Virus record (IMG/VR): IMGVR_UViG_3300049846_000918
Coordinates: 1 to 23,377 of that record
Length of the DNA: 23,377 nt
Direction: 5' to 3' (one strand)
DNA from: a virus
This document shows positions 10,195 to 20,552 of the stretch, one piece after another. The notes beneath the pieces were generated by a model. The model saw only the letters and a program-made list of their open reading frames with translations. It ran no database searches and was not told where the DNA came from. A program made the translations under genes and the position numbers. Numbering within the stretch: the first letter of the stretch is position 1; each line of letters starts with the position of its first letter.

Positions 10195-10235
10195 CACTCA
10201 AGGTACTGCCGGGGCCTGCCCATGCACAGGGTCGT

Positions 10236-10251
10236 GTCACAACTCTTCACA
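10236..10251 (-). promoter_or_regulatory. Direct-repeat operator-like motif, copy 1
   Basis: Minus strand TGTGAAGAGTTGTGAC: two TGTGA boxes 10 bp apart. It lies 77 nt upstream of the 46-aa gene start and just downstream of the terminator of the previous unit. Thirty bases after its end, on the minus strand, is TACCTT (10205-10200), a weak -10 candidate. It is one of five near-identical copies in the window (see findings). Confidence 0.75.
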
Positions 10252-10264
10252 TTTTCGTGGGCAC

Positions 10265-10289
10265 AAAAAAAGGGGCCCCGCAGGGCCCC
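10265..10289 (-). terminator. Intrinsic terminator of the 12627-to-10381 minus-strand unit
   Basis: Minus strand GGGGCCC, loop TGCG, GGGCCCC, followed by seven T (plus 10265-10271). Strong 7-bp GC stem plus T-tract. The T-tract and following GTGC resemble the terminator at 9989-10010. It lies between the mini-ORF/59-aa gene and the next motif copy, so it separates two transcription units. Confidence 0.85.
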
Positions 10290-10293
10290 GTGT

Positions 10294-10353
10294 TCAGGCT
10301 GCAGCCTGCTGCGCCTTGAGGATTGCGGCGTCGATGAACGCTTCTCGTAACAC
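10294..10353 (-). CDS. Possible 19-aa mini-ORF before the terminator
   Basis: GTG start at 10353, product VLREAFIDAAILKAQQAAA, stop 4 nt before the terminator stem. It is an Ala-rich amphipathic helix. The only support is placement: a GNRA-capped hairpin (10357-10374) ends 3 nt upstream of the GTG, just as a near-identical hairpin ends 6 nt upstream of the HTH gene start at 10985. No Shine-Dalgarno. It may well be untranslated. Confidence 0.22.
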   Translation of the reverse strand: MLREAFIDAAILKAQQAAA

Positions 10354-10356
10354 TCG

Positions 10357-10374
10357 GCCCCGGTTGCCCGGGGC
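10357..10374 (-). repeat. Intergenic hairpin, copy A of a twin pair
   Basis: Minus strand GCCCCGG, loop GCAA (GNRA), CCGGGGC: a perfect 7-bp stem. It begins 6 nt after the stop of the 59-aa gene. Nearly the same sequence forms the hairpin at 10992-11009 (shared GCCCCG...GCAACCGGGGC). There is no T-tract, so processing, stability or start-site control is more likely than termination. Confidence 0.6.
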
Positions 10375-10380
10375 ATGCCC

Positions 10381-10560
10381 TCAGCAGGACCACTCTTCGA
10401 GTTGGGCGGCCAGGTCACGCATCTCTGCGGCCAGTGCCAAGCCCCGCTCGATCGAGCGTCCGTAAGCCGAGAGGGCGGCGTCCAGTTCAGCGAGCAGCAG
10501 CGCTGTCTCCTGGCGGTCCGCCTCGATCTCGGCGAGGAGGGCGCGGTCGGCGTCGGTCAT
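10381..10560 (-). CDS. Small coiled-coil protein
   Basis: 59 aa from the ATG at 10560, chosen because GGAG lies 6 nt upstream (plus CTCC 10567-10570); an in-frame start at 10626 would add 22 residues without a binding site. The protein begins MTDADRALLAEIEADRQETA and is helical with Leu/Ala heptads and many charges to the end (AAEMRDLAAQLEEWSC). It probably forms a coiled coil. It is the third gene of the unit that begins at 12627. No family is recognised; a function cannot be given. Confidence 0.65.
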   Translation of the reverse strand: MTDADRALLAEIEADRQETALLLAELDAALSAYGRSIERGLALAAEMRDLAAQLEEWSC

Positions 10561-10715
10561 GTCGATCTCCGGTGTGTGGATGAGCCCCCAGGCGGGACTC
10601 AGCGGTGCCTGGGTGTGGGCCACCACCGGGATCGGGGCCGACGCCCCGCGAATATGCAGTTGTCCAGGTTCTGGGCTCTGGGCCCGATGCGTTCATCATG
10701 CACCCGGCCGCTGCT

Positions 10716-10985
10716 TCATGCCGTGGGGATGTCGCAATCCGTAACACACGGCCCGAGATGGCGGATCCGGTAAAGCCCGCCGCCGGGCCGGTAGTCGAGC
10801 AGGTCGGCCTCCCACAGGCGGCTGAGCCGGCGGCTCACGGCCGACTGGCTGCAGCGCCAGTGTTCGATCAGATCGGCGGTGCGGACCAGGCACGGCGGAT
10901 CCACCAGCTGGCCCAGGTCGAGCCAGTCGAGCAGCACGCCATCCGGCACGCGATGGCGCAGGGACAGGAGATCGGTGGGGGTCAT
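10716..10985 (-). CDS. Winged-helix DNA-binding protein
   Basis: 89 aa. Residues ~36-65 (TADLIEHWRCSQSAVSRRLS...) have the layout of a helix-turn-helix: a helix, a Cys-Ser turn, then an Arg-rich recognition helix SQSAVSRRLSRLWEADLL. It is followed by a beta-wing (DYRPGGGLYRIRHL). This resembles MarR/ArsR-type winged helices and some phage regulators. The N-terminus (LLSLRHRVPDGVLLDWLDLG) may mediate dimerisation. A hairpin (10992-11009) ends only 6 nt before the ATG and could block the translation start. It may be a phage transcription regulator, and is one candidate to bind the 16-bp motif; that link is speculation. Confidence 0.65.
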   Translation of the reverse strand: MTPTDLLSLRHRVPDGVLLDWLDLGQLVDPPCLVRTADLIEHWRCSQSAVSRRLSRLWEADLLDYRPGGGLYRIRHLGPCVTDCDIPTA

Positions 10986-10991
10986 GAGGAT

Positions 10992-11009
10992 GCCCCGGTT
11001 GCACGGGGC
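10992..11009 (-). repeat. Intergenic hairpin, copy B of a twin pair
   Basis: Minus strand GCCCCG, loop TGCAAC, CGGGGC, ending 6 nt before the ATG of the winged-helix gene and starting 10 nt after the stop of the 167-aa gene. It differs from copy A at 10357-10374 by one base in the shared GCCCCG-x-GCAACCGGGGC core. The position suggests it could hide the ribosome site or mark an RNA-processing point (inference). Confidence 0.6.
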
Positions 11010-11019
11010 CTGTGGGCGA

Positions 11020-11523
11020 TCAGACCGAAGCCAGCTGCTCGCGAATCCGGCCCATCACCTTGGCCGATCGGCGTGCGCGCGGCGCTGCGGCCGGCTGCAG
11101 TCGCTCGGCGATCGCTGCCAGCTGCTCAAGGGCATGTTGCGCCTGGCCCAGGCGGTCACAGGCGTCGCGGTATGCCTGCTCATAGAGGTCGACGCGCTGC
11201 ACCACCTCCTCGGCCGGCAGGTAGGAGCCGGCAGAACTGATGTGGACGTAGACCGGTTCCGGCTGAGGTTCACCCTCGCGCACGATCTGCACGGAGCGGA
11301 TCAGGTTGCGGGCCTGGTGCTCGCGATGAAGCTCGGCCGCCACCTCGTCGTTCCACTCAAAGACAGGGTGGAGGGGCGCGTCATCGGGGCGAGCATCTTG
11401 GACGACGAGCGGAGCGGTGAGCTCACCGTTCTCGCGGGAAATGCGCGCCAGCTCTTGGCCGGCGACCTGAGCATCGACACCGCTGACGCGGGTGCCGGTG
11501 CGGAAGCTGTAGGTGATGGTCAT
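11020..11523 (-). CDS. Conserved phage protein of unknown function
   Basis: 167 aa. The N-terminal half has segments VVQDARPDDAPLHPVFEWND and AELHREHQARNLIRSV, which I recall as a recurrent pattern in early-region phage proteins ('ARPEDAPLHPAFEWDD...AARLYREHQARNLI'). The middle has VYVHISSAGSYLP. The C-terminal half is helical with a long Gln/Leu/Ala coiled-coil stretch (YEQAYRDACDRLGQAQHALE), ending in a basic, Arg-rich tail. No catalytic motif is seen. It lies immediately downstream of the pentamer array in the same transcription unit. The family is likely real; its function is unknown. Confidence 0.75.
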   Translation of the reverse strand: MTITYSFRTGTRVSGVDAQVAGQELARISRENGELTAPLVVQDARPDDAPLHPVFEWNDEVAAELHREHQARNLIRSVQIVREGEPQPEPVYVHISSAGSYLPAEEVVQRVDLYEQAYRDACDRLGQAQHALEQLAAIAERLQPAAAPRARRSAKVMGRIREQLASV

Positions 11524-11570
11524 CTGAGTTGAGAGTGAAGGTGAAGGGGCGGAGAGACCGCCCCGATGGT

Positions 11571-11987
11571 GCCAAACCGGCGGTGCCGGTGCGTGCGATA
11601 GCGAGCCGAGGCCCGCCTAGCCAAGCCAGACCGGGGCGTGCCCGATCAAGCCATGGCTCGCCTTGCCTGCGGTGCCGCACCGCGCCCCGCCGGGCCATGC
11701 CTGGCCAAGCCTGCCGAACCACGCCTGGCCCGGCCTTGCCAGGCCGCGCCTCGCCGCGCTCAGCCCCGCCTCGCCTTGCCTGCGATGGGATGCCAAGCCT
11801 CGGCTGGCCTTGCCCCGCCTTGCCGGCGATGCCTGACCCGGCCGGGCCTTGCCTGGCCACACCATGCCGCGCCACGCCTGCCGCGTCGGGCCGTGCCATG
11901 CCGGGCCATGCCGGGCCATGCCATGCCTGCGGTGCCGAGCCCCGCCAAGCCGGGCCATGCCCGGCCTTGCCATTCCAGCCATGCCTG
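11571..11987. repeat. Pentanucleotide GCCNN array with 4-nt interruptions
   Basis: No ordinary gene is seen here. From 11650 to 11987 the plus strand reads as 62 consecutive 5-base units plus seven 4-base units. By hand count 53 of the 62 pentamers start with GCC, while the last two bases vary (AT, TG, TT, GG, AA, CC, CG and others). The 4-base units (CGGT, CCAC, CGAT, CGAT, TCGG, CGGT, TCCA) start at 11670, 11719, 11783, 11827, 11886, 11930 and 11974, i.e. 44-64 bp apart. A more degenerate version extends left to about 11571. On the transcribed minus strand the unit is NNGGC. The array lies between the genes at 11020-11523 and 11998-12627, inside one transcription unit. It is open in all six frames, which follows from the unit composition. 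Confidence 0.9.
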
Positions 11988-11997
11988 ATTCTCTCCA

Positions 11998-12627
11998 TCA
12001 CACGATCTCGAACAGGCCGAAGCCCAGGCCGGCGCTCATCTTCGAGTCCGGCCGTCCCTCACCGATGCCCACCTGCAGGCCCACACGGGCGATCAGGTTC
12101 ACCACGTCATCGGATGTGAGCATCCCGGCGTCGTACCGGATCCGCAGCGTGGCGCTCCACTCGCGGTAGAGCGGCCGGCAGCGCAGGTCGACCACACCAG
12201 TGGCGTTCCGCGTCGGGGCCACCCACGGCTCAGCTTCACCGCTGGTCAGCCGCACCAGTGGCGCGCCGTCCACGCGATCGAAGCCGTCCTGCAGCACCAT
12301 GAACGCCAGCTTGGCGTGCGTCATCTTGAAGCCGCACGCCCGGCAGGCGCTGATCGCAGCATTGCGGAAGGCCGCGGCATGGATGCCTTCCCAGCCTTCG
12401 TCGGCGATGTGCTTGGCACCTTCATAGAGGGACTCGAAGTCCTTGGCCTCACGCTGCTTCCGGCTTTTGGCGGTGCTGCCAGCCTCCTGGGTCTGGCGCA
12501 TCATCTCCATTGCCTTGGCGCTGAAGCGGTTGATCACCAGCGGAGCAGTGCCTTGGATGTTGATCTCAAGCCGGCGAAAGTCCGGCGGGGTGATGGTCGC
12601 GATTGCGGCCGCTTTCGTGGTTGCCAT
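11998..12627 (-). CDS. Conserved phage protein with RAMP-like glycine-rich C-terminus
   Basis: 209 aa from the ATG at 12627 (MATTKAAAIATITPPDFRRL); a start at 12669 would add 14 residues. Seen in sequence: an N-terminal strand LEINIQGTAPLVINRFS, a Lys-rich middle (STAKSRKQREAKDFESLY), a helical FRNAAISACRACGFK, a beta segment EWSATLRIRYDA, and a C-terminal glycine-rich stretch VGIGEGRPDSKMSAGLGFG (186-204). I recall the family ('APLVINRF...GxGEGRP') as unnamed early phage proteins. The G-rich end resembles the G-loop of RAMP/Cas7-type RNA-binding proteins; this is only a visual similarity. It is the first gene of its unit; the pentamer array follows directly. Function unknown. Confidence 0.75.
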   Translation of the reverse strand: MATTKAAAIATITPPDFRRLEINIQGTAPLVINRFSAKAMEMMRQTQEAGSTAKSRKQREAKDFESLYEGAKHIADEGWEGIHAAAFRNAAISACRACGFKMTHAKLAFMVLQDGFDRVDGAPLVRLTSGEAEPWVAPTRNATGVVDLRCRPLYREWSATLRIRYDAGMLTSDDVVNLIARVGLQVGIGEGRPDSKMSAGLGFGLFEIV

Positions 12628-12715
12628 TGAGTGATGGGGTGAATGTCGGACCTCTCGGCCCGTGAGCACAACCTATGGGCCAGGGTTCCCCCGTCCAGCC
12701 TCATCGCCCCAAACC

Positions 12716-12731
12716 GTTACAACCTGTCACA
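12716..12731 (-). promoter_or_regulatory. Direct-repeat operator-like motif, copy 2
   Basis: Minus strand TGTGACAGGTTGTAAC, the most diverged copy (two changes in the first half, one in the second box). It lies 88 nt upstream of the start at 12627 and downstream of the terminator at 12768-12795, so at the head of a new unit. Forty bases after it is TAGGTT (12675-12670), a possible -10. Confidence 0.7.
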
Positions 12732-12767
12732 CTCCAAGGTCGTCGCTCACCCTGGCGACGGCGAATG

Positions 12768-12795
12768 AAAAAGCCCGGCTGTCTCACGGCCGGGC
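12768..12795 (-). terminator. Intrinsic terminator of the 15695-to-13103 minus-strand unit
   Basis: Minus strand GCCCGGC, 9-nt loop, GCCGGGC, then five T (plus A-tract 12768-12772). Perfect 7-bp stem. Minus-strand transcripts would run antisense through the plus-strand gene at 12876-13121 before stopping here. On the plus strand it lies upstream of that gene and has no T-tract. Confidence 0.75.
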
Positions 12796-12875
12796 CCCAC
12801 TCCCATCACACCGGTTCGCGCCGGCAGTCCTACGCTACCTCCGACCCCTGCCTGGGCTCGATGTTCTGGCTGGAC

Positions 12876-13121
12876 ATGAACCTGTCGCTCTCGGATCAGT
12901 TCGAGATCGAGAAGCAGGTGCGCTACATCCAGGGCTGCACCGATCTGCAGGAGCTCAGGCACCTGGCGGTGGAGCTGCTGCGGTTCTCATCGCTGCAAGC
13001 CCACATCTCCAGCCAGCTGGTGCTCCAGACGGCCGAGATGGAAGCCGACATGATCGGCGAGCCGACGGCTGAGCACCAGCAGCTGGCGGCCGAGATCCTG
13101 GCTCAGCGGGCGAGCAGCTGA
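12876..13121 (+). CDS. Small cyanobacterial-type protein (LSLSDQFEIEKQ)
   Basis: 81 aa from ATG 12876; an in-frame ATG at 12861 would add MFWLD. It starts MNLSLSDQFEIEKQVRYIQG and is almost wholly helical (DLQELRHLAVELLRFSSLQA, AHISSQLVLQTAEMEA). I recall the opening 'LSLSDQFELEK...DLEELR.LAxELL' from small conserved proteins of Synechococcus, Prochlorococcus and their phages, of unknown function; it supports a cyanobacterial host. It is one of only two plus-strand genes inside the minus-strand region, and its 3' end overlaps the convergent gene at 13103 by 19 bp. No Shine-Dalgarno or strong promoter is visible. Confidence 0.72.
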   Translation: MNLSLSDQFEIEKQVRYIQGCTDLQELRHLAVELLRFSSLQAHISSQLVLQTAEMEADMIGEPTAEHQQLAAEILAQRASS

Positions 13122-13267
13122 TCGAGGTAGAGCTCAGCCTGCCAGCGATCCTCTGCGTAGCGGCAGACACCATGAGCGCAGGCGCGGTGCTCAATGTGGC
13201 CGCGATCGGTCCGCAACACTTCGATGGTGCCGCCGTCGCGGTGGATCACATCGAGCACCTGGGTCAC
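13103..13267 (-). CDS. Small Cys/His-rich protein
   Basis: 54 aa from a GTG at 13267, chosen because GAGG lies 8 nt upstream (plus 13276-13279) and because the GTG overlaps the stop of the upstream 29-aa gene (GTGA). A longer start would run through that gene. It begins VTQVLDVIHRDGGTIEVLRT. The middle RGHIEHRACAHGVCRYAED contains H24, H27, C30, H32 and C35, a cluster that could bind zinc. The C-terminal helix is RWQAELYLDQLLAR. No family is recognised. Its end overlaps the convergent plus-strand gene by 19 bp. Last gene of its unit. Confidence 0.6.
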   Translation of the reverse strand: MTQVLDVIHRDGGTIEVLRTDRGHIEHRACAHGVCRYAEDRWQAELYLDQLLAR

Positions 13268-13353
13268 GGGAGGATCCTCGACGCCAGCCACAGAGTAAGG
13301 CCGCAGACCACGCAGTAGGCGACGGTGAGCAGGAGGAAGTCGTGGAGGGTCAT
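13264..13353 (-). CDS. 29-aa single-pass membrane peptide
   Basis: Too short for standard gene finding. The product begins MTLHDFLLLTVAYCVVCGLT and ends LWLASRILP: nearly all hydrophobic, one membrane helix. Evidence that it is real: its ATG overlaps the stop of the upstream gene (ATGA) and its stop overlaps the GTG of the downstream gene, so it fills the gap exactly in a chain of coupled genes. No Shine-Dalgarno. Function unknown. Confidence 0.6.
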   Translation of the reverse strand: MTLHDFLLLTVAYCVVCGLTLWLASRILP

Positions 13354-13667
13354 GGGACCTGCCGCTGCAGCAGCTCGGCGGCGCGATCAAGCCGATCAGC
13401 TTGGCGGATGTCAAACGAGGTAGGTGCAGGTTCTCCTGGTTTGCCATGGCGTCTCCAATAGGCAATGCCCTTTAGCGTCTCGACCAACTCCGCCACCTCA
13501 CCATCGCTAGGCTGCCCAGTGACAGAGGCCGGCTCCCTGCCTTGCGGCACAGCCGGTTCATCTGCCAGGGCGGCGCGGGCCTCAGCATCAATGTGAGGCG
13601 GCACAGAGCTGCCCGTCCGGTGCGCGTGGACGTAGATGGCCATCAGGTATCGAAGGTCCGTCATCAT
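13350..13667 (-). CDS. Small early phage protein (TSFDIRQADRL type)
   Basis: 105 aa from the first of two ATGs (MMTDLRYLMAIYVHAHR), which overlaps the dcd stop. Residues ~1-25 are helical, ~26-60 look disordered and Pro/Ala-rich, and the C-terminal part carries VAELVETLKGIAYWRRHGK, then GEPAPTSFDIRQADRLDRAA, ELLQRQ. I recall this 'ELVExLK...FxRAAxLLE' C-terminus from small proteins in cyanobacterial prophages. No enzymatic motif. It overlaps the 29-aa gene by 4 nt. Function unknown. Confidence 0.65.
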   Translation of the reverse strand: MMTDLRYLMAIYVHAHRTGSSVPPHIDAEARAALADEPAVPQGREPASVTGQPSDGEVAELVETLKGIAYWRRHGKPGEPAPTSFDIRQADRLDRAAELLQRQVP

Positions 13668-14173
13668 CCCCTGCTCCCCTGCACGGTGGCATCCCCGTTG
13701 TAGCGGCCAGTGACTGCGTAGCTGCGCTGGGGGGTGGCGGCCATCTGGTGGAACACCATCTGGCCGATCTTCATGCCCGGCCACAGGGCGACCGGGTGCA
13801 GCTGGCGGCTGTTGACCAACTCAAGGGTCATGACCCCGTGGAAACCTGGGTCTGCGTACCCAGCCATCAAGTGTTCGATCCCCTCGCGGGCGCGGGAGGA
13901 CTTGAGCATGAACTGCGCGGCGATGTCGTCGGGCAGATGGAACGTCTCAACCGTGCAGGCCAGCACGAACTGCCCCGGCTTGGGCAGGTAGGGGTTCTCC
14001 TGCGTGTGCTGGTGCAGCGGGTAGGGCACCAGCTCCAGGCCCTCGGCAGATTCGATCAGCAGGGTGGGGCCGAGTCGCACATCCAGCGACGCCGGGTTGA
14101 CCAACTCAGGATCAAAGGGACTTACCATGCCGCCGTTGCAGCGGGCGGTGATTTGCCAGTCAGCGAGGATCAC
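13664..14173 (-). CDS. dcd: dCTP deaminase
   Basis: 169 aa, GTG start overlapping the stop of the upstream gene. Trimeric dUTPase-superfamily enzyme that deaminates dCTP to dUTP for dTMP synthesis (whether it also has dUTPase activity cannot be seen). Motifs: NPASLDVRLG (26-35), FMLKSSRAREGI (88-99) with the phosphate-binding SSRAR, GYADPGFHGVMTLELVN (105-121) holding the catalytic Glu (E118), LWPGMKIGQMVF (130-141), and a short C-terminal GRYNGDATVQGSRG. It is slightly shorter than E. coli Dcd (193 aa). In phages it raises dTTP supply or supports modified bases. The call is secure. Confidence 0.93.
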   Translation of the reverse strand: MILADWQITARCNGGMVSPFDPELVNPASLDVRLGPTLLIESAEGLELVPYPLHQHTQENPYLPKPGQFVLACTVETFHLPDDIAAQFMLKSSRAREGIEHLMAGYADPGFHGVMTLELVNSRQLHPVALWPGMKIGQMVFHQMAATPQRSYAVTGRYNGDATVQGSRG

Positions 14174-14325
14174 TGCTCCACCTCCTGCTGCTGTTGCGCA
14201 GCTTGGGCGAGGCCGGTGTAGAGCGCGTGCATCGGGTGCGCCGGGTCGTGCCGGCCGTCAGCCTCGTAGAGCGCTTCGAGGCGGTCTTGCACCGCCTGTT
14301 GTTGGATGGGGTCGCAGTTGTTCAT
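14170..14325 (-). CDS. Small helical protein upstream of dcd
   Basis: 51 aa, missed by length filters. It begins MNNCDPIQQQAVQDRLEALY and ends GLAQAAQQQQEVEQ. Its ATG overlaps the stop of the upstream DUF6378-like gene and its stop overlaps the dcd GTG, so it is part of the coupled chain. Helical and Gln-rich; the middle YEADGRHDPAHPMHALYTG resembles a pattern I recall from cyanophage proteins ('YxxDGRxDPxHPxHGLYTGL'). Function unknown. Confidence 0.65.
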   Translation of the reverse strand: MNNCDPIQQQAVQDRLEALYEADGRHDPAHPMHALYTGLAQAAQQQQEVEQ

Positions 14326-14594
14326 CGTTCGGTTCCGTTGAGGCGATCGGCTACCAGCTGGGCGTAGCCGGCGATGTCGTGCCAGTTGTCGGCATAGTCG
14401 GGGTCTCCGTTCAGGATCCGCCCGATCTTGTGGCAGATCATGTCCAGGGCCTCCTGCTGATCATGGGCCAGCGCTTTTCGGCGCAGATGCAAATGCCTAT
14501 TGATGATCTGCTTCAGATCTTGAGTGCATTCGGCATGCCCAGTGAACTTGCCGTAACGCTGGCCCCGCTCCTGCAGGGTGTCGGTGATGTCCAT
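14322..14594 (-). CDS. DUF6378-like phage protein
   Basis: 90 aa. It matches from memory a widespread short phage family: DITDTLQERGQRYGKFTGHA, then a helical middle with LALDxI-type QEALDMICHKIGRILNGD and a C-terminal DYADNWHDIAGYAQLVADRL. The E-x-x-L-D-M-x-x-H-K-I and D-x-W-x-D-I-A-G-Y motifs are the family signature. The all-helical fold with acidic pairs recalls MazG/NTP-pyrophosphatase-like proteins, and the place next to dcd suggests nucleotide metabolism; this is inferred. It overlaps genes on both sides (1 and 4 nt). Confidence 0.8.
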   Translation of the reverse strand: MDITDTLQERGQRYGKFTGHAECTQDLKQIINRHLHLRRKALAHDQQEALDMICHKIGRILNGDPDYADNWHDIAGYAQLVADRLNGTER

Positions 14595-14908
14595 CAGATC
14601 ACAGTCCGGGTGTTGTGGTTTGGGTCGGTCTCATCCAGGTGGCACTCAGGCCCGAAGCCGGTGGCGAGCACTTCAGCGCGGGATGGCTCGGCTCGCTCGG
14701 CGTCGGTGGCCTGCAGGCTATCCAGCCAGCTGTCCAGGGCTGCCCTGCTGGTGGTGCTGCCCTTCAGCCTGAGGAACCGCCGCAGCTCGCGCTGGCAGCG
14801 GATCCACACGCTGGCGCTGCGGGCGTGAGCGATGAAGAACCGGCCGTTGATGTCGCGGCCGGTCTCGATGCTCATCCCACCCTGCAGGTTCAGGCGGTCG
14901 CGGCGCAT
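14594..14908 (-). CDS. Early phage protein of unknown function
   Basis: 104 aa, starting MRRDRLNLQGGMSIETGRDI. The N-terminal part (DINGRFFIAHARSASVWIRC) looks like beta strands; the middle is a basic helix QRELRRFLRLKG followed by SRAALDSWLDSLQ; the C-terminal third is polar. An alternative start is the internal ATG of MSIETG. It overlaps the upstream gene by 19 nt and the downstream one by 1 nt, as throughout this operon. I do not recognise a family and see no catalytic motif. Confidence 0.62.
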   Translation of the reverse strand: MRRDRLNLQGGMSIETGRDINGRFFIAHARSASVWIRCQRELRRFLRLKGSTTSRAALDSWLDSLQATDAERAEPSRAEVLATGFGPECHLDETDPNHNTRTVI

Positions 14909-15105
14909 GCCCTGATCTCAGTGGACCATCCATGGACGTGACGCAGCAGCGCCTGGCGCTCATGCGCGAGGTCGAGCGATGGCGTCAGCCACGCAGCGTC
15001 AGCATCGGTGTCGACCGTCAGCCCGGCGGCGAACGGTGCAGTTTGATCAGTGCCGGCCGGTGCGCAGATCCAGGCGCGGCCGCGGCGAAGGTAGTAGTGC
15101 TTCAC
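14890..15105 (-). CDS. Small early phage protein
   Basis: 71 aa with a GTG start that overlaps the stop of the upstream gene (GTGA). It begins with an aromatic, basic stretch (KHYYLRRGRAWICAPAG), then a Thr/Asp/Ala-rich middle (VDTDADAAWLTPSLDLAHER) and a short helical end. No membrane segment or metal site. Position in the coupled chain and frame continuity are the main support. Function unknown. Confidence 0.6.
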   Translation of the reverse strand: MKHYYLRRGRAWICAPAGTDQTAPFAAGLTVDTDADAAWLTPSLDLAHERQALLRHVHGWSTEIRACAATA

Positions 15106-15305
15106 AGGACAGGGAGAGGAATGGTGGAGCAGTGGATGCGCGGCACCAGCCAGACGCTGGCGTCGTTGGTGGCCAGCACCTCGTAGTAGGGCCAGCCACG
15201 GATGGTGAGAACACCGGTGACGGTGGCGGTGTCGAGCACGCCCCAGCCGAGGATGTAGACCTTCTGGCCGCGTTCGTAGCGCTGGCCCCGGCGGTGGGTT
15301 CTCAT
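15102..15305 (-). CDS. Small beta-barrel-like protein
   Basis: 67 aa from the ATG at 15305 (MRTHRRGQRYERGQKVYILG), which overlaps the stop of the upstream membrane-protein gene; a start at 15326 would extend into it. After a basic N-terminus it has alternating strands: KVYILGWG, TATVTGVLTI, YYEVLATND, VWLVPRIHCS. The pattern G-x-K-V-x-I...A-T-V-T-G resembles KOW/SH3-like small barrels (my reading). It might bind nucleic acid or protein. Unknown function. Confidence 0.62.
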   Translation of the reverse strand: MRTHRRGQRYERGQKVYILGWGVLDTATVTGVLTIRGWPYYEVLATNDASVWLVPRIHCSTIPLPVL

Positions 15306-15475: not shown

Positions 15476-15478
15476 GGT
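15452..15478 (-). repeat. Three tandem 9-bp repeats at a start codon
   Basis: Plus strand TTGCACGGT three times in a row (15452-15460, 15461-15469, 15470-15478), minus strand ACCGTGCAA. Each copy carries one GTG in the same frame. Copy-number change would keep the frame and add or remove VQT units and start codons. Confidence 0.8.
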
Positions 15479-15490
15479 TCGGGAGTGGGT

Positions 15491-15509
15491 GCCGGGGTGG
15501 GCCCCCGGC
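15491..15509. other. GC-rich hairpin upstream of the membrane-protein gene
   Basis: GCCGGGG (15491-15497), 5-nt loop, CCCCGGC (15503-15509): a perfect 7-bp stem without T-tract on either strand. It lies between the 57-aa gene ending at 15522 and the GTG starts at 15457-15475. It may shape the leader of the membrane-protein gene. Confidence 0.45.
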
Positions 15510-15520
15510 GGGCCGTGGAG

Positions 15521-15541
15521 GTCAGGCCAGGTGGGCCTGAC
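15521..15541. other. Hairpin over the stop codon of the 57-aa gene
   Basis: GTCAGGCC (15521-15528), loop AGGTG, GGCCTGAC (15534-15541): a perfect 8-bp stem that includes the stop codon of the minus-strand gene at 15522-15695. It lacks a T-tract, so it is a weak terminator at best; RNA stabilisation is possible. Confidence 0.45.
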
Positions 15542-15695
15542 AAGTCCCGATCCAGCGCTGCAGCTCACCATGTCGGCGCTGCAGCTCCAGGTAACGGCCG
15601 GGATCACTGTGCGGCAGCAACCCGCGAAGCTCGCGAGCGATCTGCTCGGCCTCAGTGGTGAACTGAGCAATCAAGGCAAGGATCTGATCCTGCAT
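15522..15695 (-). CDS. Small helical protein, first gene of the dcd unit
   Basis: 57 aa, short and easily missed. It begins MQDQILALIAQFTTEAEQIA, continues RELRGLLPHSDPGRYLELQR and ends TCQAHLA. Almost all helix with polar/hydrophobic alternation. It is the first gene downstream (minus strand) of motif copy 3 at 15788-15803, from which it is separated by 92 nt, so it should be well expressed when the unit is on. No clear Shine-Dalgarno. Function unknown. Confidence 0.6.
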   Translation of the reverse strand: MQDQILALIAQFTTEAEQIARELRGLLPHSDPGRYLELQRRHGELQRWIGTCQAHLA

Positions 15696-15787
15696 TGTTC
15701 AGGACCGGCTCGGGGCCGGGCGGGGTGGTGGCCGTCTCCGGCCGTGAGCCAATCATCCCCGCTGCACTGCCCCACGACCACGCCCCT

Positions 15788-15803
15788 GTCGCAAACCTTC
15801 ACA
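15788..15803 (-). promoter_or_regulatory. Direct-repeat operator-like motif, copy 3
   Basis: Minus strand TGTGAAGGTTTGCGAC. It sits in the divergent gap between the minus-strand unit starting at 15695 and the HNH gene starting at 15844 on the plus strand. Exactly 30 bases after it on the minus strand is GATGAT (15757-15752), the same hexamer at the same distance as for copy 4. Confidence 0.75.
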
Positions 15804-15843
15804 CACGCATTCCGCCTAGCATCCCCGCAGCAGCCATGCGCTC

Positions 15844-16149
15844 ATGCAGGCCCGGATCGACGGCACCGAGCTGGTGACCGCCAGACAGGCCCGCATCAGC
15901 TTCCGCCAGAGCATCTTCAACGCATGGGCCCACCGCTGCGCCTACTGCGGCCAGCCGGCACAGAGCCTCGATCACATCCAGCCCAAGGCTCGCGGCGGCC
16001 TCACGGTGCGGCAGAACCTGGTGCCGGCATGCCTGCGCTGCAACCGACTGAAAAGCCACCGCGAGGTGTTCTCGTGGTGGCGACTGCAGCCGTTCTGGTG
16101 CGCCGATGCTCAGGCATCGCTGATCGCTTGGCTCCGCTCCGGCGAGTAG
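15844..16149 (+). CDS. HNH endonuclease
   Basis: 101 aa. HNH/ββα-metal nuclease: zinc-holding pairs Cys32/Cys35 (HRCAYCGQ) and Cys63/Cys66 (VPACLRCNRLK), catalytic His44 in SLDHIQPKARGG, and Asn58 in VRQNLVPACLRCN. Later residues (WWRLQPFWCADAQASLIAWL) are typical of HNH proteins I recall from cyanobacteria and their prophages. It cuts DNA; in phages such enzymes act in packaging, as homing nucleases or in host DNA breakdown. It is isolated on the plus strand within minus-strand operons, which fits a mobile or independently acquired gene, although its base composition looks like its neighbours. Its 3' end overlaps the convergent gene by 40 bp. Confidence 0.88.
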   Translation: MQARIDGTELVTARQARISFRQSIFNAWAHRCAYCGQPAQSLDHIQPKARGGLTVRQNLVPACLRCNRLKSHREVFSWWRLQPFWCADAQASLIAWLRSGE

Positions 16150-16439
16150 CAGCAGCACTCAGCTGCGAAGCCCAGGCCCTCCTCACGTGGGTCTGGAAAG
16201 TCCAGGTCGCAGGCGGCACCGCGCCAGTGCTGGCACCGCTCGCAGCTGTGCTCAGCTGTCGGCGCGAGGTGGCGGCGGCGATGCCAGCGCGGGATCTCCG
16301 GGCACACGTTCCGGTGGCTGAGCCCTTGGCGAACCTGGCGCACGGCTTCGCGTGATGTGCTGCCCATCTGCCTGGCCATCTCGGCATTGCTGAGATCGAA
16401 CGACAGCAAGACTTCGCGGACCTGATCGGGGGTGAGCAT
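16110..16439 (-). CDS. HTH protein with C-terminal Cys cluster
   Basis: 109 aa from the ATG at 16439; a start at 16496 would add 19 residues. Residues ~4-40 (TPDQVREVLLSFDLSNAEMA, RQMGSTSREAVRQVRQG) have a helix-turn-helix layout similar to small cyanobacterial proteins in which 'SREAVRQIR' is the recognition helix. The C-terminal half has Cys66-x2-Cys69, Cys77 and Cys95-97 with HWRGAACDLDFPDPREEG and FAAECCCY between, a likely zinc-binding knuckle. Probably DNA-binding. It overlaps the convergent HNH gene by 40 bp. Role unknown. Confidence 0.68.
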   Translation of the reverse strand: MLTPDQVREVLLSFDLSNAEMARQMGSTSREAVRQVRQGLSHRNVCPEIPRWHRRRHLAPTAEHSCERCQHWRGAACDLDFPDPREEGLGFAAECCCYSPERSQAISDA

Positions 16440-16519
16440 GGCAGGGATGAGAGAAGGGTCCGGGCCTCCGATGCCGCCAGCTACGGCAGCCAGCACCCCA
16501 CGTACTGACTGCAGCGGTG

Positions 16520-16537
16520 CCCGCCCTTACGGGTGGG
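16520..16537 (-). other. Hairpin between two minus-strand genes
   Basis: Minus strand CCCACCC, loop GTAA (GNRA), GGGCGGG: a 7-bp stem with one G-T wobble, lying 15 nt after the stop of the 66-aa gene and about 80 nt before the next start at 16439. No T-tract. The surrounding 112-bp gap (16440-16551) shows no other gene or copy of the 16-bp motif. Confidence 0.45.
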
Positions 16538-16551
16538 GCCGACCCGGGTGG

Positions 16552-16752
16552 TCACAGTTTGACGTCCGCGTCGAAGACGTAACGAGGGGCGCTGTTCGGC
16601 TGCTCAAGCGCGGTGAATGTCATGCCAGCGATCGTCAGCCCAGTGGCGCGGCTGAAGGCGTTCGCCGCATCGGCGAAGGTGCGCAGCAGCTGCTCCTTGG
16701 CTTGGATGGCTTCTTCGATGGTCATGGTGCTGGGGTACGATTTGGGCTCCAT
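16552..16752 (-). CDS. Small early protein (TIEEAIQAKEQL type)
   Basis: 66 aa from the ATG at 16752 (MEPKSYPSTMTIEEAIQAKE); the internal ATG of MTIEEA (16725) is an equally possible start. The first half is one helix (TIEEAIQAKEQLLRTFADAA) and the second half looks like strands (GLTIAGMTFTALEQP, RYVFDADVKL). No known motif. An 80-nt gap without visible signals separates it from the RlpA-like gene upstream. Function unknown. Confidence 0.58.
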   Translation of the reverse strand: MEPKSYPSTMTIEEAIQAKEQLLRTFADAANAFSRATGLTIAGMTFTALEQPNSAPRYVFDADVKL

Positions 16753-16832
16753 TGTTTGATCGATGGGCAGTCCGCTGCGGCCGGCAGCGGTGAGGCGGAC
16801 ACCGCGTGAGGACCCGCCACCGGCCAACCAAT

Positions 16833-17165
16833 TCAATAGCTGATGCGCACCTGGGCGATGCCGTCGAGCGGCACACCGAGACGCCAAGCAGCGCCAGCTG
16901 AGAGATCGAGGCTGTTGCAGTCGCAGCGGTCGGTGACCGGCACCGTCAGCACCCGGCTGCCGTGGCGCACCGTGACGCGGGTGCCGCAGGGCAGCCAAGG
17001 ATGGGCGGCCGACACGCCCCAGTGGCGGTAGATGCCGCCGCAGTAGGCCGGGCCGCCGTTGAACTCCTGGTGATAGACCGTGGCTGTCACCGGCCGGCCG
17101 GCGTGATGCGCGAGGGCCGGGCCCTGCAGAAGCAGGGCCGCGGCGAGGGTGATGCGTCGGATCAT
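16833..17165 (-). CDS. Secreted RlpA-like double-psi beta-barrel protein
   Basis: 110 aa. Signal peptide: basic MIRRI, hydrophobic TLAAALLLQGP, cleavage likely after ALA (residue 19). The rest is a single double-psi beta-barrel domain as in RlpA, barwin and expansin-like proteins: TATVYHQEFNGGPAYCGG, LPCGTRVTVRHGS, then VTVPVTDRCDC-type Asp79 and the family's SLDLS (85-89) and AAWRLG. In bacteria RlpA cleaves or binds glycan strands; Asp79 and Asp87 are the conserved acids here. Cys42, 60, 81 and 83 could form disulfides. An exported cell-wall protein in the early region is unusual. The ATG overlaps the upstream stop. Fold call good; activity unknown. Confidence 0.8.
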   Translation of the reverse strand: MIRRITLAAALLLQGPALAHHAGRPVTATVYHQEFNGGPAYCGGIYRHWGVSAAHPWLPCGTRVTVRHGSRVLTVPVTDRCDCNSLDLSAGAAWRLGVPLDGIAQVRISY

Positions 17166-17485
17166 GCGCGGGCCTTCCTGCTGCCCTTGCGGCTGCGGCG
17201 AGCGGGGACCGGGGCCGGGGCCGGGGCCGGGGCCGGAGCGATGGCCAGCACCGGCACGACGACCGGCTCAGGCGTCATGCCTACCAGCAGGGTGCTCCAG
17301 GCGGTGGCCAGCTCGTCGTTGCGGGCCTCCAGCGCCTGACGCAGCAGACGGCCCAGGTCGTAAGCCAGCTCGGCGGCGAGCACCAGCAGTGTGGCGGCGA
17401 AGGCCAGCACCGCAGCGGTTACCCGAGCGGCGCGTTCAATGTGCGGGCCCCAGTTGGACAGGGCGATGGACTTGATCGTGTTCAT
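17162..17485 (-). CDS. Membrane protein with PA-repeat and basic tail
   Basis: 107 aa from the ATG at 17485. One hydrophobic helix (residues ~22-41: VTAAVLAFAATLLVLAAELA) is followed by AYDLGRLLRQALEARNDELA, an amphipathic region, a Pro-Ala repeat (APAPAPAPAP, encoded by four tandem GGGGCC units at 17211-17234 on the plus strand), and a very basic end (RRSRKGSRKARA). I recall membrane proteins with 'ELxYDLGR' in cyanobacterial prophages. The basic tail might bind DNA or phospholipid. Its stop overlaps the RlpA-like start (ATGA), so the two may act together at the envelope. Function unknown. Confidence 0.65.
   Translation of the reverse strand: MNTIKSIALSNWGPHIERAARVTAAVLAFAATLLVLAAELAYDLGRLLRQALEARNDELATAWSTLLVGMTPEPVVVPVLAIAPAPAPAPAPVPARRSRKGSRKARA
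17211..17234 (+). repeat. (GGGGCC)4 hexanucleotide repeat in coding sequence
   Basis: Four perfect tandem GGGGCC units on the plus strand, preceded by a partial unit. They encode the Pro-Ala repeat of the minus-strand membrane protein. Length change in steps of six would alter the linker without a frameshift. Confidence 0.85.
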
Positions 17486-17549
17486 GGCTGATCGGTGGTA
17501 GATGGACGATGGCCCAGAGGGCCAGGACAAGAAACAGGACAGTCTTCAT
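17436..17549 (-). CDS. Possible 37-aa signal-like peptide, first in its unit
   Basis: Begins MKTVLFLVLALWAIVHLPPI and ends SHEHDQVHRPVQLGPAH. The start looks like a signal peptide or membrane anchor. It overlaps the next gene (17485) by 50 nt in another frame, so only one may be real; the short spacing to motif copy 4 (64 nt) matches that of other first genes in their units. GGAG is present but 13 nt from the ATG, too far to be convincing. Confidence 0.4.
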   Translation of the reverse strand: MKTVLFLVLALWAIVHLPPISHEHDQVHRPVQLGPAH

Positions 17550-17613
17550 GGGGTTCGGGCGTCTCCGCCCTGCGGTCATCATCGGCGCAGCACCAGCCGG
17601 TTGCGGTGGTGCT

Positions 17614-17629
17614 GTCACATAGCTTCACA
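17614..17629 (-). promoter_or_regulatory. Direct-repeat operator-like motif, copy 4
   Basis: Minus strand TGTGAAGCTATGTGAC, a single base from copy 5. It overlaps the stop codon of the upstream gene (17615-17617) and lies 64 nt before the 37-aa ORF and 128 nt before the membrane-protein gene. Exactly 30 bases after it is GATGAT (17583-17578), as for copy 3. Confidence 0.75.
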
Positions 17630-18079
17630 ATCCCACGGTGAGCTGATCACCCGCCACCGGCCCATCAGCACCTGCTGGCGCCCGTACAGGAACCCGCAGA
17701 GCGTGCTGACCGGCACGCCCCGCTTCTGCGCCCATTCACGCCGGCGCGACACCGGCAGCCGGATGGTTGTTTTGGTCGACCGGCACCGCAGCACCCAGGC
17801 TGGCTCATCTTCCAACCTGGGGCCATCGGTGGCGTGCTTCTTCACCCACCAGATCCATGTGCCCGATCGGTTGCTGACCGAGCACCGCCGGATCAGCCCG
17901 CGATCCTCAAGGGTGCGCAGGCTGCGGTTCAGCGTCGCTCGATCGGTGCCAAGCTGCTCAGCCAGATCAGCCAGCTGTTCCCACCATCCGGGGCATACCT
18001 GCTCCAGCTGCACCATGACCAGCACCATCTCAGCGCGATGGTGCTGGCGCAGGTGAGCCAGAAAGACTGGCTCGATCAC
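17615..18079 (-). CDS. Two-HTH DNA-binding protein downstream of ssb
   Basis: 154 aa from a GTG 1 nt after the ssb stop; longer versions would run through ssb in another frame. Residues ~33-67 (WEQLADLAEQLGTDRATLNR, SLRTLEDRGLIRRC) form a winged-helix HTH of the Crp/MarR type. The C-terminal ~40 residues (RREWAQKRGVPVSTLCGFLY, GRQQVLMGRWRVI) look like a second small HTH. I recall 'REWAQxxGVPxSTLxGFLYGRQ' from cyanobacterial phages. No cyclic-nucleotide domain is present. It may be a transcription or replication regulator and is a candidate to bind the 16-bp motif; a copy overlaps its own stop codon. Confidence 0.7.
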   Translation of the reverse strand: MIEPVFLAHLRQHHRAEMVLVMVQLEQVCPGWWEQLADLAEQLGTDRATLNRSLRTLEDRGLIRRCSVSNRSGTWIWWVKKHATDGPRLEDEPAWVLRCRSTKTTIRLPVSRRREWAQKRGVPVSTLCGFLYGRQQVLMGRWRVISSPWDCEAM

Positions 18080-18080
18080 G

Positions 18081-18515
18081 TCAGAACGGGATGTCGTTCT
18101 CGGCGACCGGCGCGACCGCGGCAAGATGCGGGGCCGGCGCAACTGCAGCGGGCATCGGCGCTGGTGCAGCAGGGGCAGGTGCAGCGGCCTGAGCCTGGGC
18201 GTCGCTGAACTTCTCGATGTTCTCCGCCGTGAACCGCTCAGCCAGACGCTGCTGACCGTTCCGATCGGTGTAGAGCTCAGGCTCTTCCACCCGACCGTAG
18301 AGGAACACCTTGTCGCCCTTCTTGACGTAGTTGCCCACGTACTCGGCCGACTTGCCCCATACCGCCACATTCACCCAGCGCGCAGCCTGTTCTTGGCCTT
18401 GCCGGCGTGGCTGACGCACAGCCACTGTGAAGTTGGCGACCATCTTCCCGTCGTTGAGATACTTCAGCTCAGGATCTCGTCCGAGGTTGCCTGTGATCTG
18501 TCCGATGTAAGCCAT
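18081..18515 (-). CDS. ssb: Single-stranded DNA-binding protein
   Basis: 144 aa. N-terminal OB fold (about 1-105): MAYIGQITGNLGRDPELKYL, then ANFTVAVRQPRR, WVNVAVWGKSAEYVGNYVKKG, FLYGRVEEPELYTDRNGQQR. The linker is Ala/Pro-rich (~106-138) and the tail ends ENDIPF, the acidic tip by which SSB recruits recombination and replication proteins. Family known to form tetramers that coat ssDNA. It is encoded with RecE- and RecT-like genes, so it probably serves phage recombination and replication. Its 5' end overlaps the HTH gene by 52 nt. Confidence 0.94.
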   Translation of the reverse strand: MAYIGQITGNLGRDPELKYLNDGKMVANFTVAVRQPRRQGQEQAARWVNVAVWGKSAEYVGNYVKKGDKVFLYGRVEEPELYTDRNGQQRLAERFTAENIEKFSDAQAQAAAPAPAAPAPMPAAVAPAPHLAAVAPVAENDIPF

Positions 18516-18688
18516 TGTGGTGAAAGTTTCTCGAAAGCGTGGATCCCCTCTGCGGGGTAAAGCACCCGGGCGCCAACCCGGATGTAGGGCGGGCCCTTGC
18601 CCGCATGACGCCAGTTGGCCAGCGTCTGATCACTCAGACGCCAGCGATCGGCGAGCTCCTTGGATGTGAGATACGCTCGCTCACTCAT
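18464..18688 (-). CDS. Excisionase/MerR-type HTH protein
   Basis: 74 aa from the ATG at 18688, chosen because a perfect GAGGAG lies 8 nt upstream (plus 18697-18702); an in-frame GTG at 18697 is possible. The sequence MSERAYLTSKELADRWRLSD, QTLANWRHAGKGPPYIRVG, RVLYPAEGIHAFEKL is a textbook helix-turn-helix of the AlpA/Xis (HTH_17) type: 'L-T-x-x-E-L-A-x-R-W-x-x-S-x-x-T-L-x-x-W-R...P-x-Y-x-R-x-G-x-x-V-L-Y'. These bind DNA as regulators or excision factors. No integrase is seen in this window. It overlaps ssb by 52 nt, an unusually long overlap. Confidence 0.8.
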   Translation of the reverse strand: MSERAYLTSKELADRWRLSDQTLANWRHAGKGPPYIRVGARVLYPAEGIHAFEKLSPQWLTSDRSQATSDEILS

Positions 18689-18700
18689 GCAACGCACTCC

Positions 18701-19441
18701 TCAAAATGGATCATCAGCGATGACCTCCGTGATCAGATTCTGTGCAGCCTCTGCTTGATCAACAGGCGATTCCTCGCCAGAGTCGGTGTCTGGTGTTGCA
18801 GCGGTTGAGCCAGCGATGATCTTCTGGTTCAGCTCGGCGACGACACTGCCGCCGCCAGTGGCCGGCTCCTCGCGCACCGTCACCGGCCGCACCTCGGCCT
18901 CTTCGCGGACGCCCAGGCCGAACAGCACCTCAGGCATGTAGAGGTTGATCAGCCGGGTCGCAGCGCGCCAGCGCAGCATCTGCTCTGGGATCGAGCGGTA
19001 CTTCGGATTCCGGGTCCAGCCGTCGGCCGCGGCCTCCTTCATCGTGACCGTGGCGGTGATCACCTCGCCGGTCTCGCGCATCACCGCCGTGGCGGTCACC
19101 TCCAGCGCGTCGCCGGTGCCCTTGCTCTTCCAGCTGATCGGCCCCTGGAGCAGGCCCGACTTGTTGGCGCGGCTGATGGCGAATCTGGAGGAGGTGTTCG
19201 GCCGGCCGTTGATCACCGACATCTCCTGAAACAGCAGCATCGGGTGCTCACCCAGCTGCTCGGCGTAGAGCATCGCCACCAGGCACGCCTCAGGCTTGCC
19301 CTGGAAGTGGGGCGGCACCATGCCGCTCATGCTGAACGCCTTGGCCAGGCGGTAGCGGTGATCGAGCGCTGCACCGTCATGCAGGAAGGCCAGCGCTTGG
19401 TTGTTGCTGGTCGTGGTCGTGAGGGCTGTGGAGTCGGTCAT
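18701..19441 (-). CDS. RecT-like single-strand annealing protein (probable)
   Basis: 246 aa. Pattern seen in a phage recombination family often labelled RecT-like: SMSGMVPPHFQGKPEACLVA, then LGEHPMLLFQEMSVINGRPN, SRFAISRANKSGLLQGPI, VTMKEAAADGWTRNPKYRSI and PEQMLRWRAATRLINLYMPE (the 'MLRxRA' and 'P-x-V-L-x-G' blocks are the best match). Family members pair complementary ssDNA made by a partner nuclease; here a RecE-like gene lies two genes upstream. The C-terminus ends EVIADDPF, resembling the SSB acidic tip. Start ATG overlaps the upstream stop. The family call is by motif memory and context. Confidence 0.72.
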   Translation of the reverse strand: MTDSTALTTTTSNNQALAFLHDGAALDHRYRLAKAFSMSGMVPPHFQGKPEACLVAMLYAEQLGEHPMLLFQEMSVINGRPNTSSRFAISRANKSGLLQGPISWKSKGTGDALEVTATAVMRETGEVITATVTMKEAAADGWTRNPKYRSIPEQMLRWRAATRLINLYMPEVLFGLGVREEAEVRPVTVREEPATGGGSVVAELNQKIIAGSTAATPDTDSGEESPVDQAEAAQNLITEVIADDPF

Positions 19442-19659
19442 GGGTCAGTTGGGGGTGAGTTGGTGGATTCAATGGCCGCCGCCAGCTGCTCAAGCGCTGG
19501 CACTGGATCCTGGCGAAGAGCTGCCAGGAACTTCTCGCTGCGGATGGCCTCGCGGATCATCTCGGCGGCGGTGCTGATACCTCGGTCGAACGACAGGCTG
19601 GCCGCCTCGATCGCAACGCGGAAGATCATCTCGCGGGCATTGAGGTTGGTGTCAGTCAC
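19438..19659 (-). CDS. Small helical protein between recE- and recT-like genes
   Basis: 73 aa from a GTG at 19659 (first residues VTDTNLNAREMIFRVAIEAA); a longer start would run further into the nuclease gene. Helical throughout (SFDRGISTAAEMIREAIRSE, FLAALRQDPVPALEQLAAAI). It overlaps the nuclease gene by 8 nt and the RecT-like gene by 4 nt. This position and tight coupling suggest a helper of the recombination pair, but no family is recognised. Confidence 0.62.
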   Translation of the reverse strand: MTDTNLNAREMIFRVAIEAASLSFDRGISTAAEMIREAIRSEKFLAALRQDPVPALEQLAAAIESTNSPPTDP

Positions 19660-20461
19660 GACACCACCCCGGCAGCTCGATCGGCTCCTGCACCAGGTCG
19701 CCATAGCCCGGCCAGCGGCCAGAGGCCCAGCACTCAGCCAACAGCGCCATGGCCGCCTCGATCCGGCGCTGGCCGGCGGCGATCATGGCACCGCTCGCGG
19801 GGTAGACCGCCACGGCGAACGGCCGCACGTTCTCCACTGCGATCGTGATGAACTGCTCGGCACCCAGCGCGTCCTGGTTCCAGGCCGCCTGGACGTGATA
19901 GTCCAGGTTGGCGATGCTCTTGGCGAACTCCACCCGGCTCGCGTCACGGGTGGTCTTCACGTCCACCACGATCCTCCTGTCTTCCGAGTGCCAGTCCGGC
20001 CTGGTCTTGCAGGCGAGGCCCGTCTGGGGATCCTCCCACGTGTAGCTGGCCTCCCGCCGGCCTGGGAGCTCCAGCAGGAAGCCAGCCGCCGGGTGCTTCC
20101 GCACCTGGTCCGCCATGCGGCGCACCTGGTCCGCATCGTCGGGCGACAGCACGATCTTCCCGGCCGCCTCCCGCTCGAACTCGGCGGCCAGCTCCTTGCC
20201 GACCTTGGTCCGGCGGTCGAAGCTGTGCGGCGGCACCGCGATGGTGGTGTCCCAGAGCTCAGGCTCCAGCACCGCCGTGTGGAGGGCGGTGCCCATCAGC
20301 ATGGCCGGCGTCGGCTCCCGCTTCTCGCGGTCCTCTGCCAGGAACTGGTCGTAGTAGTGCAGGGGGCTGCGCCCGAGCACCTTGATCTGGCTGGGCGAGA
20401 CCGCTTTGAGTGCGTGGTAGGCCTCGTTCGTGAGGCCTGGGTGGTGGGTGAGGGTTGGCAT
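19652..20461 (-). CDS. RecE-like / exonuclease VIII-type PD-(D/E)XK nuclease
   Basis: 269 aa from the ATG at 20461; a start at 20551 would add 30 residues and cross the promoter region. The N-terminus has HHPGLTNEAYHALKAVSPSQ and MGTALHTAVLEPELW (57-71), usual in the RecE C-terminal nuclease domain (DUF3799). The active site is E137 in REASYTW, D156 in CKTRPDWH, then IVVDVKTTRD with D167 and K169, and the following helix YHVQAAWNQDAL (Gln191). RecE digests dsDNA 5' to 3' so that RecT can anneal ssDNA. First gene of the unit behind motif copy 5, 75 nt away. Call confident. Confidence 0.87.
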   Translation of the reverse strand: MPTLTHHPGLTNEAYHALKAVSPSQIKVLGRSPLHYYDQFLAEDREKREPTPAMLMGTALHTAVLEPELWDTTIAVPPHSFDRRTKVGKELAAEFEREAAGKIVLSPDDADQVRRMADQVRKHPAAGFLLELPGRREASYTWEDPQTGLACKTRPDWHSEDRRIVVDVKTTRDASRVEFAKSIANLDYHVQAAWNQDALGAEQFITIAVENVRPFAVAVYPASGAMIAAGQRRIEAAMALLAECWASGRWPGYGDLVQEPIELPGWCRD

Positions 20462-20536
20462 CCAGCCTGTGGATTGCGTGGTCAGTCTCGACCCTACGGC
20501 CTTCCCGTCCCTTACTTCCGCTTCCCGCTGCATCCC

Positions 20537-20552
20537 GTCACATACCTTCACA
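20537..20552 (-). promoter_or_regulatory. Direct-repeat operator-like motif, copy 5
   Basis: Minus strand TGTGAAGGTATGTGAC, closest to the consensus. It lies 75 nt upstream of the RecE-like gene (minus) and at the same time its right end is the -35 box (plus TTCACA 20547-20552) of the helicase promoter. Forty bases after it on the minus strand is TAGGGT (20496-20491), a possible -10, the same spacing as for copy 2. Confidence 0.78.

Follow-up and report, generated by a model that had tools for sequence, protein, structure and literature searches.

Paired direct repeats at the minus-strand promoters of a cyanophage as candidate sites of the host regulator RpaB

HLR1, the binding site of the OmpR-family response regulator RpaB, is a cyanobacterial direct repeat with a period of 10 base pairs (bp) (KTTACAWW-N2-KTTACAWW; PMC13421787, PMC9241938). 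The portion of the RpaB literature considered here describes activation from HLR1 sites at about -66 to -45 and repression from sites overlapping -38 to +23, and lists psaD and psaE as RpaB-activated in other cyanobacteria (PMC13421787). Motif-predicted HLR1 sites off the consensus exist, too, one of them with TTCACA (PMC6331805). For cyanophages, host control is described for the response regulator PhoB, which acts on genes of S-PM2d and on pstS of P-SSM2, whereby the authors of that study caution that predicted boxes require binding tests (PMC10976474). A link of cyanophages to RpaB or HLR1 was not recognised in the portion of the literature covered, which is no proof of its absence. Here we describe 10-bp direct repeats which head every minus-strand transcription unit of the virus record IMGVR_UViG_3300049846_000918 (23,377 bases; this whole stretch is called the window in the following) and which may be activator sites for the RpaB protein of the host.

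The window is probably a fragment of a phage. Its bases 1106-2642 are matched by the Synechococcus phage S-CBS3 at 74%, and to judge from such similarities its kinship is with the cyanosiphoviruses. On its plus strand the window has genes of the tail type together with a helicase/methylase pair, and on its minus strand a cluster for exonuclease VIII, a RecT-like protein and a single-strand DNA-binding protein (SSB), a dCTP deaminase gene and small genes. As in the PhoB cases, cyanophage promoters would use a response regulator of a host two-component system here, too. The Pho boxes described in the PhoB study (PyTTAAPyPyT/A) stand at some genes upregulated under phosphate stress, whereas in this phage TGTRA repeats of 10-bp period head every minus-strand unit.

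Promoters headed by paired direct repeats

On the minus strand the repeats have the form TGTRAM-N4-TGTRAC. We detected six such sites in the window, each followed by a -10 box after exactly 30 or 40 nucleotides (nt), a regularity unseen in the first-pass annotation. The transcription start (+1) was predicted seven nt after this box. All sites and boxes given here are on the minus strand. Site 1 (20537-20552, TGTGAAGGTATGTGAC, 26.1 bits with the matrix described below) heads the exonuclease/RecT/SSB unit and is 40 nt away from the box TAGGGT (20491-20496; predicted +1 at 20484, a T). The same spacing applies for site 4 (12716-12731, TGTGACAGGTTGTAAC, 21.9 bits), which precedes TAGGTT (12670-12675; +1 at 12663). 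The spacing is 30 nt for site 2 (17614-17629, TGTGAAGCTATGTGAC, 22.9 bits) with GATGAT (17578-17583; +1 at 17571), site 3 (15788-15803, TGTGAAGGTTTGCGAC, 24.4 bits) with GATGAT (15752-15757; +1 at 15745), site 5 (10731-10746, TGTTACGGATTGCGAC, 18.5 bits) with CATGAT (10695-10700; +1 at 10688) and site 6 (10236-10251, TGTGAAGAGTTGTGAC, 24.8 bits) with TACCTT (10200-10205; +1 at 10193). Except for promoter 1, the predicted start is an A.

Five of these sites had been described in the first-pass annotation, and a check of the letters confirmed their coordinates and strand. Correct are also the common orientation, the distances of 64-92 nt to the following gene start and the overlap of one site with a stop codon (site 2 with the stop of gene 17615-18079). 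The claim of one site ahead of each minus-strand unit applies to these five, but site 5 had been overlooked, and the last stretch therefore consists of two units instead of one. Site 5 is further supported by related contigs with a strong site in the same flanks (L007:11848, L079:2413). Intrinsic terminators had been proposed for three units. A simple scan fitted only two minus-strand unit ends (10289-10272 and 10011-9994), and its hits overall were at chance level (8 versus 7.6 expected).

Four of the five sites first described are within 3 mismatches of the consensus proposed with them. Dinucleotide shuffles gave 0.16 on average and none of 100 shuffles reached four, an estimate that is optimistic because the consensus was derived from these very sites. 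The site at 12731 has more than 3 mismatches, yet reaches its 21.9 bits with the matrix of phage sites. For this matrix, 43 non-redundant sites from the relatives and from the window itself were combined, and a composite was defined as a matrix site followed by a -10 box after 29-31 or 39-41 nt. In the window, all 8 composite hits fell on the minus strand, at the six promoters, and the plus strand gave no hit, compared to a Markov-chain background of 0.44 per strand on average and 3 at most. With a leave-out matrix of 31 sites from relatives, from which the sites of the window and their close copies had been removed, the same 8 minus-strand hits and again no plus-strand hit were obtained (background 0.72 per strand, largest 4); site 5 scored 18.8 bits here. 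Eight hits result from six promoters because both 40-nt sites score again one helical turn on (20542 and 12721). These extra scores correspond to a third box, which is degenerate at site 1 (TGCAGC, 20532-20527) and very degenerate at site 4 (TGGGGC, 12711-12706).

For the comparison with related phages, the exonuclease was used as query (57 loci) as well as the protein encoded at 11998-12627 (45 loci); S-CBS3, three parts of the window and some duplicated contigs are included in the set of 106 loci that was scanned. In this set, 57 forward and 3 reverse occurrences of TGTRA-N5-TGTRA were found. The other 15 gap lengths between 0 and 15 nt gave 0-4 forward and 0-10 reverse occurrences, so that the gap of 5 nt, corresponding to the 10-bp period, is the sole enriched one. 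After collapsing similar contexts, 46 site clusters remained. A TANNNT box follows the motif at 30 nt in 13 and at 40 nt in another 13 of them, whereas offsets of 29, 39 and 41 nt were found in 3, 1 and 2 clusters and three further offsets in one each. The binomial probability for one such offset (30 or 40 nt) is about 1e-22. Within 800 nt upstream of the exonuclease gene, 47 of 49 loci (at least 60% identity and at least 400 nt upstream; window and duplicates such as L007/L062 included) contain the composite, many of these sites having also trained the matrix; it is missing in L011 and L036. The composite is not universal in the 102 loci of the two queries: among those of protein 11998-12627 with lower identity or lower G+C it is mostly absent. 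Five relatives of 48-52 kb contain 7, 7, 5, 4 and 5 composite hits, with 0.05-0.20 expected per strand and at most one hit on the opposite strand. In one of the relatives (G081) two hits lie far from the exonuclease region.

With the same element, orientation and geometry at six promoters of the window, as in the relatives, the earlier proposal of a single regulon over the minus-strand units is supported. The repeats almost certainly mark real promoters which share one activator site.

CRP and lambda CII, with which the repeats had been compared, provided no further lead, and HLR1 is the closest match. A CRP site is the palindrome TGTGA-N6-TCACA, whereas both halves point in the same direction in all six phage sites. 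The sites of lambda CII (TTGC-N6-TTGC) are direct repeats of 10-bp period, too. They differ in sequence, and they flank the -35 hexamer, whereas the phage repeats lie further upstream. Both candidates were dropped. The repeats of the Pho box have a period of 11 bp, and a Pho box was dropped as well: this spacing is not enriched among the 106 loci (0 forward and 2 reverse occurrences) and the box sequence differs from that given in the PhoB study.

The promoter of the exonuclease unit shows two further features. A palindrome GGTC-N6-GACC (20493-20480, minus strand) covers its -10 box and the start, and 30 of the 47 exonuclease promoters contain this palindrome over the -10 box. It may serve a second regulator as operator. 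Ahead of the divergent helicase gene (20617-22011) lies the -10-like GATAAT (20570-20575, plus strand) in the arrangement TTCACA-17-GATAAT, where the first box of site 1, read as reverse complement, falls on the -35 position. At this gene, site 1 would be expected to repress or to activate by another mode.

Hairpins in the 5' leaders

The predicted leaders often begin with an A, and a short hairpin comes next. With the exonuclease promoters set aside, 45 non-redundant promoters were considered, and in 19 of these a GNRA tetraloop is closed by a stem of 4-7 pairs that starts at +1 to +5. No such hairpin was found at seven control positions further downstream (0/45), and shuffled leaders gave 0.075 on average and 1 at most. 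The loops are GAGA (14), GCGA (3), GAAA (1) and GCAA (1), and the three loop-proximal pairs vary between G-C, C-G, A-T or G-T. These pair counts alone are no proof because the hairpins were selected for pairing; the proof is the position control. The remaining leaders contain hairpins with different loops or no hairpin. None of 16 exonuclease promoters has the GNRA hairpin, whereby the two promoter types were separated by a pattern of our own and a few may be misplaced.

In the window, four of the six leaders have the GNRA form: GGGCG-GAGA-CGCCC at +2 of promoter 2 (17557-17570), GGCCG-GAGA-CGGCC at +3 of promoter 3 (15730-15743), CGGGCC-GAGA-GGTCCG at +2 of promoter 4 (12647-12662) and GGGCA-GAGA-TGCCC at +2 of promoter 6 (10179-10192), the latter with an extra A-T pair at +1, all on the minus strand. 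The hairpin of promoter 5, after the start at 10688, has a non-GNRA loop. A stricter scan, for a -10 box followed after 6-11 nt by a GNRA hairpin of at least 5 pairs, covered seven larger relatives and four named phages besides the window and found 12 cases. Ten of them have an activator-site score of at least 11 bits, and the other two are located in G106 and G110. The scan gave no case in G075, G100, S-CBS1, S-CBS3, KBS-S-2A and S-H1. Rfam showed no match in the window at gathering score, so the hairpin fits no known RNA family model. The leader hairpin is very likely an RNA element. Stem-loops at 5' ends have known effects on mRNA, and from these we infer with about even odds that it protects the 5' end of the phage mRNA.

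Candidate regulators of the repeats

Read from the opposite strand, the phage motif is about KTYACAWW-N2-KTYACAWW. The reverse complement of HLR1, as given in the articles cited above, agrees with the majority base of the phage motif at 14 of 16 specified positions, with free evidence limited to the unfixed ones because a pattern fixing T, G and A in each box had served to preselect the 43 training sites. Relative to the predicted starts, the sites lie at about -58 to -43 (30-nt spacing) or at -68 to -53 plus the third box (40-nt spacing). The former position overlaps most of the activating zone reported for RpaB. The paired direct repeats, their period and the predicted placement upstream of the core promoter are common to the phage sites and the HLR1/RpaB regulon, and the box consensus may be so as well. 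Different is that the phage boxes are mostly TGTGA, whereas HLR1 implies TGTAA, and that the predicted sites are phage-borne and stand at the head of recombination and DNA-metabolism genes. RpaB itself is well conserved: in the last 110 aligned columns the protein of marine Synechococcus is 85-87% identical to those of S. lacustris, Prochlorococcus, Synechocystis salina and a Leptolyngbya. A protein with 85% identity to the cyanobacterial RpaB query was also found on a contig filed as a Bifidobacterium breve metagenome-assembled genome (L109), which is probably misfiled or a mixed bin.

A related pair occurs at psaD and psaE of possible hosts. We inspected the best 30 of 58 matching Cyanobiaceae-type genomes (among 61) for psaD and 30 of 53 matching genomes for psaE; because all loci of a given gene are homologous to each other, they cannot be counted as 30 independent cases. 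The predominant sequence upstream of psaD is TGTTGACGGGTGTGAA; in 29 of 30 loci a GTGAM is followed by TANNNT after 39-41 nt. A second peak at 49-51 nt (24/30) is caused by the first box, ten bases further up. Upstream of psaE mostly RCGAC-N5-RTGAC was found, followed by TANNNT after 29-30 nt in 28 of 30 loci. With a common criterion (TGAM, 29-31 or 39-41 nt) both genes reach 29/30, one of the psaE hits being a chance 40-nt hit, compared to 2/30 for psaF and 1/30 for recA. With 39-41 nt at psaD and 29-30 nt at psaE, both spacings of the phage therefore recur at these photosystem I promoters.

Several results weigh against the phage sites being activated by RpaB of the host. The two mismatches to HLR1 are positions with G in the phage where HLR1 implies A, and A is the minority base there. 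With the phage matrix, whose training sites have a median of 24 bits, low scores were obtained for the host sites (psaD about 4-8 bits, psaE about -2 to 11 bits). In 2.0 Mb of one Cyanobiaceae-type genome (G033), the hits of this matrix were not enriched for -10 boxes at either of the two spacings (30 and 40 nt) and revealed no wider regulon; looser patterns gave no clear peak. Two strict host-type patterns had five hits in this genome; the two with TANNNT at the right distance are psaD and psaE. Among 30 psaF loci nothing convincing was found, and psaE of three distant cyanobacteria, one of them a Synechocystis, lacks such a pair upstream. The upstream region of psaL contains psaI, which in 23 of 30 loci (L468-L497) has a conserved upstream element similar to TTGAACTTTTATGTCG, with TANNNT counted 21 times 38-40 nt on. 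We rejected it as the same motif, since its sequence differs although its position class is that of psaD. Furthermore, the picocyanobacterial host is deduced solely from the relatives of the phage, and one relative (G110) combines a sigma factor gene with one fair and three weak sites.

A regulator encoded by the phage itself had been suggested by the first-pass annotation, which named the proteins at 10716-10985, 16110-16439, 17615-18079 and 18464-18688. This became less likely, since homologues of the first three are patchy among the five array-bearing relatives of 48-52 kb (present in 2, 3 and 4, respectively). The best such candidate is the excisionase-like helix-turn-helix protein of 74 amino acids at 18464-18688 (minus strand; phrog_66, E 7e-07), which would bind the repeats and control the units as repressor or activator. 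It has homologues in all five of these relatives and in 53 of 62 loci, and phrog_66 is described as excisionase and transcriptional regulator. The protein occurs in phages without the array as well (L036/G100, KBS-S-2A and S-H1), and a phage regulator leaves the similar geometry at psaD and psaE of the hosts unexplained; we consider it unlikely. The OmpR-type DNA-binding domain (Trans_reg_C, PF00486) was found neither in the window nor in any of 50 related or named phage records (six loci left out), whereas 10 of 14 control genomes were positive. For many of these records absence is weak evidence because they are fragments, several nonetheless being 48-52 kb long. Direct reading of the repeats by RNA polymerase with an unusual sigma factor and no activator would fit the fixed distance to the -10 box. 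It is highly improbable, as the boxes at -43 to -58 or beyond are upstream of the -35 region and two spacings one helical turn apart occur. The domain search detected no sigma factor in the window, and a sigma factor (PF04542) in only five of the 50 records, S-CBS1, S-CBS3, KBS-S-2A, G100 (L036) and G110 (L049), four of which are array-less.

The activator is likely a regulator of the OmpR family supplied by the host. OmpR-family proteins bind direct repeats, so RpaA or a second OmpR-type response regulator might take the place of RpaB. At several promoters, competition between RpaA and RpaB for common sites has been reported (PMC13421787). RpaB is favoured by the 10-bp register of HLR1 and by the same source naming psaD and psaE among the RpaB targets, and we regard another member of the family as a rather improbable binder. 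RpaB of the host is our preferred candidate and somewhat likely to be the activator.

S-CBS1, S-CBS3 and KBS-S-2A share related structural or exonuclease genes with the window. In contrast to it they have a sigma factor gene of their own and, like the close relative G100 (scanned to base 40,000 of 40,792), no composite above chance. A strict exclusion of sigma factor and array holds for these four phages. We rejected it as a general rule, since G110 has both and S-H1 neither.

Neighbouring features and implications for infection

Three further observations in the window concern neighbouring genes. Within the DNA methylase gene, the stretch 22164-22349 has about 81% DNA identity to methylases of Mycobacterium phages, which is unusual given such distant phage hosts. 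Between the genes 11020-11523 and 11998-12627, GC-rich degenerate tandem repeats (GCCGGGCCAT and related units; 11689-11985) are open in several frames and probably non-coding. Finally, a plus-strand open reading frame (15844-16149) lies within the minus-strand cluster and overlaps gene 16110-16439. Homologues were found in 21 of 62 loci and also in S-CBS1 and S-CBS3. By our reading its product may be HNH-like, and a gene of S-CBS3 annotated as HNH endonuclease is a candidate counterpart.

We propose that TGTRAM boxes, arranged in pairs or sometimes in threes along the same helix face, would be the activator sites of an early promoter, placed whole turns (30 or 40 nt) upstream of a -10 box of the sigma-70 type and in many cases joined to a 5'-terminal GNRA hairpin at +1 to +5. 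Host RNA polymerase together with a light/redox regulator of the host would then switch on the recombination and DNA-metabolism genes of the phage, while related phages with their own sigma factor mostly do without the array. In its full form, this reading says that a cyanophage lineage handed its core early transcription to the photosynthetic redox regulator of the host by means of numerous promoter copies of the photosystem I type, of which many, though not the exonuclease copy, are joined to an mRNA-protecting 5' hairpin, often of the GNRA type, and that related phages use their own sigma factor instead. We assign it a probability of roughly 0.45.

Cyanophage infection depends on light, and promoters of this kind would be a way for a phage to read light at its first genes. 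If the reading is true, the onset of infection would be controlled by light and redox state directly at the level of transcription. Provided that RpaB drives these promoters, the link from light to the first genes would become testable, and a compact cassette of promoter plus hairpin would be defined. Host two-component control of cyanophages would then reach from PhoB and phosphate stress, as described in the PhoB study (PMC10976474), to core replication genes. It would also suggest a trade-off between an own sigma factor and a borrowed activator.

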